Positions 4,524 to 8,583 of a stretch of 8,583 nucleotides of DNA are shown piece by piece. The stretch is from positions 1-8,583 of the forward strand of contig CAMLSA010000120.1 in assembly GCA_946482655.1 (NCBI GenBank). Direction: 5' to 3'. Position numbers and translations under genes: made by a program. This DNA is from an uncultured Sphingomonas sp. GTDB taxonomy: Bacteria > Pseudomonadota > Alphaproteobacteria > Sphingomonadales > Sphingomonadaceae. Below the pieces are notes generated by a model that saw nothing but the letters and a program-made list of their open reading frames with translations, did not search any database and had not been told where the DNA came from. How positions within the stretch are numbered: the stretch's first letter is position 1; every line of letters begins with the position of its first letter.

Positions 4524-5747
4524 TTGCCGCTCGCAGCGCTCATCGCCGCGCAGGATCAGACGGACATTGGCGACGGTTTGCGCGCGACCCTGCCGCTTGC
4601 GGGACGTACATTGCTCGAATATCAGGCCGGGCTCGCGCTCGCCGCCGGAGCCGGCCATGTCGTCGTGCTGGTGGAACGGGTGCCGGCGAGCCTTGCCCAG
4701 GCGGTCGACCGGTTGCGGCGGCAGGGCAACCGGATAGAGATCGCGCGCAGCGTCGCCGACGCCGCCGACCGCTTCCATCCCGAGGAACGGATCATGCTGG
4801 TCGCCGATGGCGCGATCGTGGCGCAGGACGCGGTCGAGGCGCTCGCCGCCGAGCCCGGCCCCGCGCTGCTCGCGCTGCCCGACACGCAGGCCCATTCGGA
4901 GTTCGAGCGGATCGATGCGGGCCAGCGCTGGGCCGGCTTTGCGCTGCTCGGCAAGGGGGCGCTTGAGGCGACCGCGCAGATGCTGGGCGACTGGGATCTG
5001 AGCTCGACGCTGCTCCGCCGGCTGGTTCAGCTGGATGCGGTACGGATCGATGCGACCAATCCCTCGGGTGAACGGCCGGTGCCGCCGCCGGTGCTGGCGA
5101 TCGGCCCTAGCGCGATCGGCGCCGTCGAGGCGAGCCTGTTGCGGCGCGCCGATCCGGGCGGCGGCAACTGGGCCGAGCTCTATCTCCACCGGCTGTTCGC
5201 CGGCCCGTTGGTCGGACCGCTGGTCGCGCGCCAGATCGATCAGCGCCATGTCGCGGCCGGTGGGGTGGCGCTCGCCTGGGCCGGCGCGCTGTTCGCCGCC
5301 TTCGATTTCTTCTGGGCGGCGGTGCTGCTGCTGCCGCTATCGGCCGTCGCCGTCTCGGCGGCCCGGCGGATGGCGCGGATCTGGAACGGCGCCGCCGAGC
5401 CGGCGGTGCTGGTCGACCTCGCCCGCCATGGCGCCGCGCTGGCCGTGCTGATTCTGCTCGGCCGGGTGCTCGCGACCGAGGACGGCTGGGGCTGGTGGAT
5501 GGTGACGGCGCTGGTGCCGGCTTCGCTGGCGGGGCTCTCCGCGCTCGACCCGATCGTTGCCGCGATCCGCCCGCTGGCGCCGCCGCGCTGGCTGGCGAGC
5601 GCCGACGCGCTGGTTTGGGTGGCGCCGTTCATGGCGGTGCTCGGCGGCTGGCGCTCGATGGCGGCGGCGCTCGCCGCCTACGCGATGCTGTCCTTTCTCG
5701 AGAGGTTCGTGGCGGCGTGGAAGGGGGCGCGAATTTGTGCCAGGTGA
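4524..5747 (+). CDS. Degenerate nucleotidyltransferase / CDP-alcohol phosphotransferase-like membrane fusion protein
   Basis: A 407-residue protein starting at TTG. Residues 1 to about 190 resemble a sugar-phosphate nucleotidyltransferase: LIAAQ at the first strand, LPLAGRTLLEYQAGLALAAGAGHVVVLVE (23-51) matching the usual LLPVxGxPLLxxQ segment, and MLVADGAIV (91-99) with Asp95 at the metal-binding strand. The glycine-rich loop (AAGxGxR) is replaced by AAQDQTDIGDGLR and the PK lysine by Arg20. Residues about 215-400 hold some five hydrophobic segments and begin like the membrane half of inositol-phosphate cytidylyltransferase/DIPP synthase fusions (WAELYLHRLFAGPLVGPLVAR). The CDP-alcohol phosphotransferase signature D-x2-DG-x2-AR-x8-G-x3-D-x3-D aligns at 277-302 with exact spacing, but only Ala284, Arg285 and Asp298 remain; the other positions are Val277, Ala280, Arg281, Ala294 and His302. 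Catalysis is therefore doubtful and a binding or regulatory role is possible. It stands 136 nt after the Hpt-like gene and 42 nt before the DUF2336 gene. Confidence 0.75.
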   Translation: MPLAALIAAQDQTDIGDGLRATLPLAGRTLLEYQAGLALAAGAGHVVVLVERVPASLAQAVDRLRRQGNRIEIARSVADAADRFHPEERIMLVADGAIVAQDAVEALAAEPGPALLALPDTQAHSEFERIDAGQRWAGFALLGKGALEATAQMLGDWDLSSTLLRRLVQLDAVRIDATNPSGERPVPPPVLAIGPSAIGAVEASLLRRADPGGGNWAELYLHRLFAGPLVGPLVARQIDQRHVAAGGVALAWAGALFAAFDFFWAAVLLLPLSAVAVSAARRMARIWNGAAEPAVLVDLARHGAALAVLILLGRVLATEDGWGWWMVTALVPASLAGLSALDPIVAAIRPLAPPRWLASADALVWVAPFMAVLGGWRSMAAALAAYAMLSFLERFVAAWKGARICAR

Positions 5748-5789: not shown

Positions 5790-6914
5790 ATGATGGGGTT
5801 GGAAGACGAACGGTTGGACGCAGGGCGGCCCGCAATGACGCAGTGGCTGAGCGCCGCCGTGCGCGCGCTCGATGGGGCCGAGGACCGCATCGACCGTGCC
5901 GCCAGCGAGCTGTTCCACAACTCCGCCCTCAACCTTTCGGATCAGCATCGCGCCCAGATCACCCAGTTGATGCGCGCGCTGATCGGCGCGATCGAGGACG
6001 AGCTCCGCATCCGGATCGGCAACGCCCTGCCGCCCGATGCCAGCCCCGAACTCGCGGCCGCGCTCGGCTCGGCGCGGGTGCCGATCGCCCAGCCCCTGCT
6101 CGAGCGCACCCAGCTGCTGCGCGAGCCCGATCTCGTCTCGGCGATGCTGCGCCGGGTCGATGAGCATCGCCTCGCGCTCGTGCTCGGCCGTGATTCCCCC
6201 TATCACGTCGCCGATCTCGCTCAGCGGCTGCTCGACATGGGCGACGAAGAGATAGTCGAGGCGGTTATGGCGCTGTTGATCGCCGAGAGCCGCCGTTACG
6301 ACCAGTTCGGTGATCCCGCGCTCGCCCGCACCGATCTGCCGCCGGGGCCGCATCGCCGGCTGCTCTGGGCGGTCGCCGCGGCGCTGCGCCACTATCTGAT
6401 CCGCCAGCATGCGGTGCCCGATACCCAGGCCGATCTGATGCTGGCCGGGGCGGTGCGCGACCTGCTCGCCGAACATGAGGATGCAGACAGGCTCGAGGTC
6501 CGCGCCGACGCGCTGGCGCGGCTGCTCGGCGAGCGCGGGCTGAGCGACGACGCGCTGCTCACCGCCGCGCTTGAGGAGGGCTGGCTCGCCTTGTTCACCG
6601 CGGCGATCGCGCAGCGCGCCGGAATCGACGCGAACGGGGTCTGGTCGATGGTTGCCGACCCGTCTGGGATGATGCTGGGCACGGTGCTGCGCGCGATCGA
6701 TTGCGGCCGTGATGCCGCGGTCACCATATTGTGGCGGATCGGATCGGCCGAGGGCATCGGAGAGGAAACTTTGGTCGAGCGCGCCGAGGCGTTCGATCAG
6801 ATCAGCATGCGCGATGCTGCCGAGGCCGTGCTGATCTGGCGTCTCGATCCCAATTACCGACGCGCGGTGATCGAGATCGGTACAGGCGGTAGCGACGGCG
6901 GCCGGCGGCGATGA
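5790..6914 (+). CDS. DUF2336-type helical-repeat protein
   Basis: A 374-residue cytosolic protein, nearly all helix, with no signal peptide or membrane segment. From about residue 85 to 240 it follows the DUF2336 pattern of short repeated helices: VPIAQPLLERTQLLREPDLVSAMLRRVDEHRLALVLGRD, then VADLAQRLLDMGDEEIVEAVMAL. DUF2336 is an uncharacterised family common in alphaproteobacteria; its HEAT-like look suggests protein binding. No catalytic motif is visible. The stop codon overlaps the kinase ATG (ATGA), so the two are translated from one message and probably act together. The start is uncertain. ATG 5790 and ATG 5793 lack a Shine-Dalgarno and lie only 22 nt after a CtrA-like box. ATG 5835 (residue 16) has AGGG at 5822-5825 with 9-nt spacing, and may be the true start if transcription begins near 5785-5790. 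Confidence 0.8.
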   Translation: MMGLEDERLDAGRPAMTQWLSAAVRALDGAEDRIDRAASELFHNSALNLSDQHRAQITQLMRALIGAIEDELRIRIGNALPPDASPELAAALGSARVPIAQPLLERTQLLREPDLVSAMLRRVDEHRLALVLGRDSPYHVADLAQRLLDMGDEEIVEAVMALLIAESRRYDQFGDPALARTDLPPGPHRRLLWAVAAALRHYLIRQHAVPDTQADLMLAGAVRDLLAEHEDADRLEVRADALARLLGERGLSDDALLTAALEEGWLALFTAAIAQRAGIDANGVWSMVADPSGMMLGTVLRAIDCGRDAAVTILWRIGSAEGIGEETLVERAEAFDQISMRDAAEAVLIWRLDPNYRRAVIEIGTGGSDGGRRR

Positions 6915-8260
6915 ACGCGCCGTCCTCGATCCGGCCGGTTCATGGCAAGGTCGATGATCAGGGCCGCCTGATCGAAGCCGATCCGCCGCTGCTGCGGTTG
7001 CAGGAGCGCGCCGGAGGCGTCTGCGGCGGTACGCTCGCGTTGCCCCAGCTCGCCTCGCTGGTGCGGCTGACGCGACGGCTCAAGATTGCGATCTCGCGGC
7101 GCGTGATCGCCGCCAACGGCGATCAGGATGTCGACCTGTGGGTGCAGGTGAAGCCCGGCAATGGCGGGGTCGAGCTGGCGATCACCGGCTGGCAGGAGAT
7201 TGCCCCGTCGGTTCCGCCGCCGGGGCTGGACGCGTTGCGCTGGCGCGATTTCTGCCGAGCCAGCGCCGACTGGATCATCGAGACCGATACCATGCTGCGG
7301 GTGACCCAGCCGCCCGCCAACATGCCCGGCGCGATCGGCCAGCCGATCGAGGCGCTGTTCACCTTGAGCTGCGACGAGAATGGCGTCAGCCGGATCGCGG
7401 AGGCGGCCCGGCGCGCCGAACGCTTCGAAGACGGCGGCGCGACCTTCCTGCTCGGTCCCGGCGTACCGGTACGGATCGCCGGGGTGCCGCTGATCGATGG
7501 GCTCGGCGGGCTCGCGGGATATCAATTGCTGATCAGCCGCCGCGATAACCAGGCGTCGCGCGCACGCGCCTTCCATCCCGTCCCGCTCGACGAGGCGTTC
7601 GGGACCCAACTCGGCCGGGCGATGCGCGAACCGCTCGACAAGATCATCGCCAATGCCGATGCGATCCAGGATCGTGGCGATGGCCCCGTCCGGCGCGATT
7701 ATGCAGACTATGCCGAGGATATCGCCGGTGCCGGCCGCCATCTGCTCGCGCTGGTCGAGGATCTGGTCGATCTCCAGCAGATCGAGCGCGCCGATTTCCG
7801 GCCCGAGGCCGAAGAGGTGGATCTGACCGACACCGCGCTGCGCGCCGCGGGGCTCCTCGGCGTCCGCGCCGCGAACCATCAGGTTACGATCGACGTGCCG
7901 ATCGACGGGCGGATCGTAATGGCACGCGGCGATTTCCGGCGCATCCTCCAGGTGCTGATCAACCTTTTGAGCAACGCCATCCGCCATTCGCGGAGGGGCG
8001 GCGCCGTGCTGATCCGCTGCGAGCGCGAGGGCGATATCGCCGCGGTCATCGTGGCGGATGATGGCGACGGCATCGCCGCCGAGCATCACGACCGGATCTT
8101 CGACCGGTTCGAGCGGCTTGGCTTGCGTGACGGCACCGGCAGCGGCCTCGGGCTCTACATCTCGCGTCGCCTCGCCCGCGCGATGGGCGGCGACCTGGGT
8201 GTGGACAGCGCGCCGGGGATGGGAGCGCGCTTCGTGTTTACCCTTCCGGCGGTGGAGTAG
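6911..8260 (+). CDS. Cytosolic PAS-type histidine-kinase homologue lacking the phosphoacceptor histidine
   Basis: A 449-residue protein without membrane segments. Residues about 14-95 and 107-210 look like two PAS-like sensor regions (GRLIEADPPLLRL; RWRDFCRASADWIIETD). The dimerisation helix pair runs from about 227 to 292. Its H-box, usually SHELRTPL, reads GRAMREPL at 235-242, putting Arg236 (codon CGG, 7616-7618) at the phosphorylated His. The second helix (GRHLLALVEDLVDLQQIE) is typical; its His277 is the common HLL position and not the acceptor. The ATP-binding domain is intact: N-box NLLSNAIRHS (351-360, Asn355), G1 DDGDGI (383-388), F-box IFDRFERL (396-403), G2 GTGSGLGL (408-415). It should therefore bind ATP but not autophosphorylate at the usual site, much as the kinase homologue DivL carries Tyr there. 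The ATGA overlap with the DUF2336 gene implies coupled translation. No cognate response regulator is in the window. Confidence 0.9.
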   Translation: MNAPSSIRPVHGKVDDQGRLIEADPPLLRLQERAGGVCGGTLALPQLASLVRLTRRLKIAISRRVIAANGDQDVDLWVQVKPGNGGVELAITGWQEIAPSVPPPGLDALRWRDFCRASADWIIETDTMLRVTQPPANMPGAIGQPIEALFTLSCDENGVSRIAEAARRAERFEDGGATFLLGPGVPVRIAGVPLIDGLGGLAGYQLLISRRDNQASRARAFHPVPLDEAFGTQLGRAMREPLDKIIANADAIQDRGDGPVRRDYADYAEDIAGAGRHLLALVEDLVDLQQIERADFRPEAEEVDLTDTALRAAGLLGVRAANHQVTIDVPIDGRIVMARGDFRRILQVLINLLSNAIRHSRRGGAVLIRCEREGDIAAVIVADDGDGIAAEHHDRIFDRFERLGLRDGTGSGLGLYISRRLARAMGGDLGVDSAPGMGARFVFTLPAVE

Positions 8261-8382: not shown

Positions 8383-8583
8383 TCAGCGTTCGCCCACCGG
8401 TACATAATCGCGCTGCGCCGGTCCCATATAGAGCTGGCGCGGGCGGCCGATCTTCTGTTCGGGATCGGAGATCATCTCGTTCCACTGCGCGACCCAGCCG
8501 ACGGTGCGGGCGAGCGCGAAGAGGACGGTGAACATCGTCGTCGGGAAGCCGATCGCCGACAGGATCACGCCCGAATAGAAATC
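8383..8583 (-). CDS. gltA: Citrate synthase, C-terminal 66 residues (cut by window edge)
   Basis: The TCA-cycle entry enzyme, condensing acetyl-CoA and oxaloacetate to citrate in the cytoplasm. The visible end reads [20 protein letters not shown], then an [15 protein letters not shown] segment, a [16 protein letters not shown] segment and a [10 protein letters not shown] tail, the hallmark C-terminus of the type II (GltA) enzymes. The first residue in the window is the catalytic Asp of the DFYSG motif (Asp362 in E. coli). The 66 residues from it to the stop equal the number in the E. coli enzyme as I recall it, so the C-terminus is complete. The 5' part lies beyond the right edge, so nothing can be said of its promoter. 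It converges on the kinase-homologue gene. Confidence 0.96.

Follow-up and report, generated by a model that had tools for sequence, protein, structure and literature searches.

A widespread pseudo-histidine kinase of Sphingomonadales that has lost the phosphoacceptor histidine and kept the ATP-binding boxes

We analyzed an 8,583-nucleotide stretch of an uncultured Sphingomonas sp. genome (contig CAMLSA010000120.1, assembly GCA_946482655.1), hereafter the window, and in particular its gene for a histidine-kinase-like protein with arginine at the phosphoacceptor position. This protein is a real, old and widespread pseudo-histidine kinase. Its gene lies between a gene for a DUF2336 protein and gltA (Table 1). 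The ATGA shared by the DUF2336 and kinase genes (6911–6914) agrees with the coupling of the two that had been proposed in an earlier interpretation made from the letters of the window (the sequence-only reading).

Table 1. Features of the window, with positions counted from its first nucleotide
Feature	Position	Strand	Remarks
Pseudo-histidine kinase gene, 449 amino acids	6911..8260	+	ATG start; N-terminal PAS-like region, DHp ~228-292, HATPase_c 340-447
Degenerate H-box GRAMREPL, residues 235-242	7613..7636	+	
R236 codon, phosphoacceptor position	7616..7618	+	ungapped alignment to His-bearing relatives
A237 codon, +1 position	7619..7621	+	
E240 codon, +4 position	7628..7630	+	
N-box N351-N355	7961..7975	+	
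G1 box DDGDG, D383-G387	8057..8071	+	
F-box F397-F400	8099..8110	+	F397 in 60/60, F400 in 54/60 family rows
G2 box G410-G414	8138..8152	+	
DUF2336 (PF10098) protein gene, weakly SpbR-like	5790..6914	+	4-base overlap with kinase gene
P407: NTP-transferase-like N-terminus, hydrophobic C-terminus	4524..5747	+	CDP-alcohol phosphotransferase relative, motif apparently lost
Pseudo-HPt, 98 amino acids	4091..4387	+	Leu at phosphoacceptor position
P813, 813 amino acids	1567..4008	-	hydrophobic segments ~70-126; remainder coiled-coil-like by eye
gltA (citrate synthase), 3' part	8386..8583	-	conserved neighbour

The kinase-like protein matched Pfam HATPase_c (PF02518) with 97.4 bits against a cut-off of 26.4, and its N, G1, F and G2 boxes were intact, as the sequence-only reading had stated. 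The HisKA match was sub-threshold (22.9 bits against a cut-off of 26.9) and covered residues 238–292 only, that is, past the acceptor. A hydropathy scan revealed no transmembrane candidate or other hydrophobic segment in the protein, in agreement with the cytosolic location claimed for it. The N-terminal region is probably PAS-like, judging from Pfam PAS matches in relatives of the kinase (some below the cut-off, others precomputed) and from the secondary structure of the predicted model.

In an ungapped alignment, R236 stood opposite the phosphoacceptor histidine of HK853 (PDB 2c2a) and of relatives reading FLSSMSHELRTPL, which confirmed the placement of arginine at the acceptor site of the H-box GRAMREPL. 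Both the acceptor histidine and the acidic +1 residue of a catalytic HisKA domain were thus missing from the window protein (R236 and A237, respectively), while HATPase_c with all four boxes was present. The family was sampled at 165 loci: 60 (54 including the window, plus six) and 105 further ones, the latter being 109 aligned loci minus four repeats of genomes already counted. The acceptor residue was Pro in 76 loci, Arg in 32, Gly in 16, Gln and Glu in 6 each, Thr, Ser and Lys in 5 each, Ala and Asp in 4 each, and Asn, Val and His in 2 each, both His being of the Zymomonas type. Neither Tyr at the acceptor, the state of DivL, nor an acidic residue at +1 was found in any of the 165 loci, and Thr was retained at +4 in six. 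At the same time, N351, N355, D383, G385, G410, G412 and G414 were kept in all 165 loci and G387 in 164. The non-His state suspected from the window alone therefore held across orthologues (2/165 His), and the +1 Glu and +4 Thr proved to be lost as well; conservation of the arginine did not hold, and Arg as a conserved functional residue was rejected, Pro being commoner. One lineage of the family has Asp at the acceptor (L070, L072 and L073; open frames of 354, 341 and 598 amino acids, respectively), and the kinase orthologue of genome G077 (L052) carries an in-frame TGA; no other of the matches listed contained a stop.

A second sample, 120 listed database homologues overlapping the family loci and including the window's own protein, had Arg at the acceptor in 72 cases, Lys in 22, Gln in 15, Glu in 4, Asn in 3, and His, Ser, Ala and Thr in one each. 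Recent loss and sequencing error were rejected on the 72 homologues with Arg and the single one with His, together with the residues seen at the family loci. H277 was the sole position within residues 100–447 where His occurred in at least half of the 60 family rows (60/60); it was rejected as a substitute acceptor because His also occupies this position in 130 of 132 His-bearing relatives.

The AlphaFold model of the kinase (mean predicted local distance difference test score, pLDDT, 82.9; predicted template modelling score 0.48) matched the DHp-CA folds of DivL, HK853 and RetS, with DivL (PDB 4q20) first, tied with ZraS and HK853. Regarding the acceptor register, the sequence alignment placed R236 at H260 of HK853 (offset 24), and several structural HK853 rows suggested an offset of 23. 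The sequence alignment was preferred because pLDDT in the DHp region was 62–78 in blocks of ten and the structural rows gave range ends only, with root-mean-square deviations to HK853 chains of about 5–10.

The order to which Sphingomonas sp. SRS2 belongs was represented by 297 genomes, and the kinase was matched at E ≤ 1e-30 in 268 of them, weaker matches being paralogues or His-bearing relatives. At E ≤ 1e-5, an N-terminal profile had matches in 281 of 296 genomes, about 190 of them strong by hand count. The gene appears not to be universal: among the 25 weakly matching genomes, G213 and G218 were without a match at E ≤ 1e-35, and G101, G113, G135, G225 and G227 had a single partial match each (about 1e-38). 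No earlier description of this pseudokinase family was recognised in the literature searched, which most subscription journals lay outside.

Basal Sphingomonadales and Emcibacterales encode PAS kinases that differ from the family in an intact H-box: His at the acceptor, Glu at +1 and Thr at +4 were each present in 132 of 132 rows (120 listed homologues and 12 locus rows). The L092 kinase had His in all of the 120 homologues listed of 7311 found; those named belong to Pedomonas (Sphingomonadales), Govanella unica (Emcibacterales) and Emcibacteraceae. These kinases share with the family a position as sister rows in the tree and a similar gene context, the latter drawn from fetched loci only: in 10 of 12 loci (L091–L102), a same-strand DUF2336 gene immediately preceded the kinase gene, and gltA and gltX adjoined the kinase gene in L092. 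The contigs of the remaining two loci, L100 and L101, break off on the upstream side; a further DUF2336 match of L101 lies elsewhere, on the opposite strand. Trees were quick builds with the trait columns removed and with Shimodaira–Hasegawa-like approximate likelihood ratio test (SH-aLRT) support, no bootstrap being used. The family formed one clade in trees of 56 and 81 rows (SH-aLRT 99 in both), so catalysis was probably lost once and early. Relatives with a normal histidine, which the sequence-only reading had named as refuting evidence (recent loss or sequencing error), do exist in the same gene pair; as they occur in basal lineages, they date the loss as ancient rather than recent. Two Zymomonas-type members of the family have the histidine as well.

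The ratio of nonsynonymous to synonymous substitution rates (dN/dS) in three pairs of close relatives was 0.14–0.17 overall and 0.07–0.14 across 65 DHp codons, indicating purifying selection. Position 244 changed from Ala in 131 of 132 His-bearing relatives to Arg in 49 of 60 family rows, and position 247 from Gly (132/132) to Ala (52/60); position 248 was replaced too, from Phe to Asn in 39 of the 60 rows. Positions 244 and 247 align with residues 268 and 271 of HK853, named in PDB titles as rewired interface residues. The docking surface thus appears to have been changed and re-fixed, which may reflect a new docking partner.

The best overall explanation, to which as a whole we give a probability of roughly 0.6, is that an ATP-binding, PAS-like pseudokinase signalling by protein contact and not by phosphotransfer was derived from a normal DUF2336-linked kinase and became fixed in an ancestor shared by most Sphingomonadales. 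In its favour are the lost H-box residues beside intact ATP motifs, the DUF2336-linked relatives with His, the single clade of the quick trees, purifying selection, the altered interface positions, the DHp-CA fold, the conserved gene order and the probable Zymomonas pair. The lost phosphorylation machinery, the kept ATP pocket and the apparently dead neighbouring enzymes together suggest that the protein is probably a switch or scaffold and not a kinase. A soluble, presumably dimeric protein would have lost the acceptor histidine together with the +1 Glu and the +4 Thr while retaining the ATP-binding domain. We infer that it binds ATP, dimerizes, changes shape on a signal reaching its N-terminal region and delivers its output by contact with a partner; this may be an active kinase, the product of the overlapping DUF2336 gene or the membrane-linked proteins encoded nearby. 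Its action would thus probably be allosteric and depend on ATP. A part in the cell cycle or stress network, raised in the sequence-only reading, is hypothetical.

Several observations weigh against this explanation. A close homologue with His at the acceptor, P0020 (Ala at +1, Glu at +4), is among the 120 homologues listed, and two Zymomonas-type family loci have His followed by Ser at +1 and Pro at +4. The quick trees have long branches, and the 81-row search, whose tree needs three changes of the His state, missed a better one: in a follow-up test, a tree in which Zymomonas fell outside the rows lacking His was better by 68.8 log units (p 0.955). The Zymomonas histidine was either kept or regained. 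Kept ATP motifs do not prove tight binding: DivL binds TNP-ATP (trinitrophenyl-ATP) only weakly (57 µM, according to an excerpt of PMC4211667). DUF2336 is not an obligate partner, being absent from 5 of the 54 kinase loci whose upstream sequence measured 1.1 kb or more and from L103–L105, where neither a DUF2336 nor an HPt-like gene was found beside the Asp-acceptor kinase. Finally, oxygen-specific growth in Zymomonas, the sole phenotype found that may concern the pair, would belong to a His-bearing orthologue.

Among other explanations, DivL-like action is a tentative one: the degenerate DHp would bind a phosphorylated DivK-type receiver and relay allosterically to CckA. DivL of Caulobacter (PDB 4q20) shares the DHp-CA fold without an acceptor histidine; its homologues have Tyr there, with an Ala exception in Magnetospirillum, in the excerpt available of PMC4211667, whereas the family has Pro, Arg, Gly or other residues and altered +1 and +4 positions. 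The replacement of the interface positions 244 and 247 and of the neighbouring 248 argues against such action, as does the genome of SRS2. Besides the pseudokinase, 22 other kinase-like matches were found there and 20 were fetched; nine aligned at the acceptor, eight with His and one with Tyr. The Tyr protein (L110) had DivL 4q20 as its best PDB match (1.5e-46) and fell outside the family clade, on a long branch. A DivL-like protein and the pseudokinase thus coexist in SRS2; the pseudokinase was rejected as the sphingomonad DivL, and its distinctness from DivL, already proposed, is supported by sequence. Degeneration or loss of DivJ-PleC-DivK in Sphingomonadales is reported in an excerpt of PMC2877005. 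A pseudokinase version of a histidine kinase, likened here by description only, is also mentioned for ChrS of Corynebacterium glutamicum in part of PMC9491836.

Somewhat more doubtful is a heterodimer in which the pseudokinase would inhibit or tune an active histidine kinase, by analogy with RetS, which heterodimerizes with GacS and inhibits or tunes it. No other kinase was found among the recognised conserved genes of the cluster, which speaks against such a pairing. It is improbable that phosphorylation persists via a residue other than the canonical histidine: the intact ATP site, the invariance of H277 in the 60 rows and the histidine of the Zymomonas-type orthologues would be consistent with it, but H277 is nearly as conserved in the His-bearing relatives, Pro is the commonest acceptor residue and the acidic +1 residue never occurs. 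A decaying gene under relaxed selection, as the TGA of the G077 orthologue and the freely varying acceptor position might suggest, is very improbable given the low dN/dS, the unchanged ATP boxes and the kept synteny. To our knowledge, few pseudo-histidine kinases are understood. Because the present family is widespread in its order and extant relatives that carry the histidine share its gene pair, the loss of catalysis can be placed on a tree, and the role of a kinase fold after the loss of phosphotransfer becomes directly testable.

The gene order around the kinase was conserved. DUF2336 was encoded directly upstream in the window and in 49 of the 54 kinase loci with sufficient upstream sequence, on the same strand in all 49. 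The DUF2336 protein shares PF10098 with SpbR (Wang and Bowman 2019), but its SpbR match was weak, 53.5 bits, far below the cut-off of 400. Among the rows of the HPt-like protein (pseudo-HPt), His at the acceptor position was found in 5 of the 103 rows with a residue there, out of 104 (L003 and P0207–P0210). In P407, an NTP-transferase-like domain is fused to a hydrophobic domain resembling CDP-alcohol phosphotransferase whose motif is apparently lost; it is apparently a pseudo-enzyme, a degenerate CDP-alcohol transferase. P813 was present in 27 of 31 long loci, and its family had no Pfam match at E 0.01 and NCBIfam matches at chance level only. A likeness of P813 to TipN is conceivable. It is conceivable, though doubtful, that the whole cluster of pseudo-kinase, pseudo-HPt, pseudo-CDP-alcohol transferase, DUF2336 and membrane coiled-coil-like proteins is a non-catalytic module. 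The ancestor of the sphingomonads would have converted a phosphorelay and a lipid enzyme into a switch that is gated by ATP, acts through protein contact and is required for aerobic growth.

The pyruvate decarboxylase of genome G181 aligned without visible mismatch to PDB 2wva, which we take to be the Zymomonas mobilis enzyme, and G181 was taken as Z. mobilis. The gene order in this genome was P813-P407-DUF2336-kinase-gltA-gltX, gltA presumably being ZMO1963. An excerpt of PMC8237431 lists ZMO1964 with genes for glutamate, histidine and cysteine. According to part of the aerobic-growth section of PMC10746277, ZMO1961-ZMO1962, an uncharacterised protein and a putative histidine kinase, had an oxygen-specific knockdown phenotype in a CRISPR interference study of Z. 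mobilis. On the basis of annotation and gene order, ZMO1961-ZMO1962 is probably the orthologous DUF2336-kinase pair; a Zymomonas locus for aerobic growth, published as uncharacterised, would thereby gain a proposed identity. His-bearing orthologues with Ser at +1 and Pro at +4 were found in four loci of Zymomonas-type genomes (L138, L139, L252 and L253).
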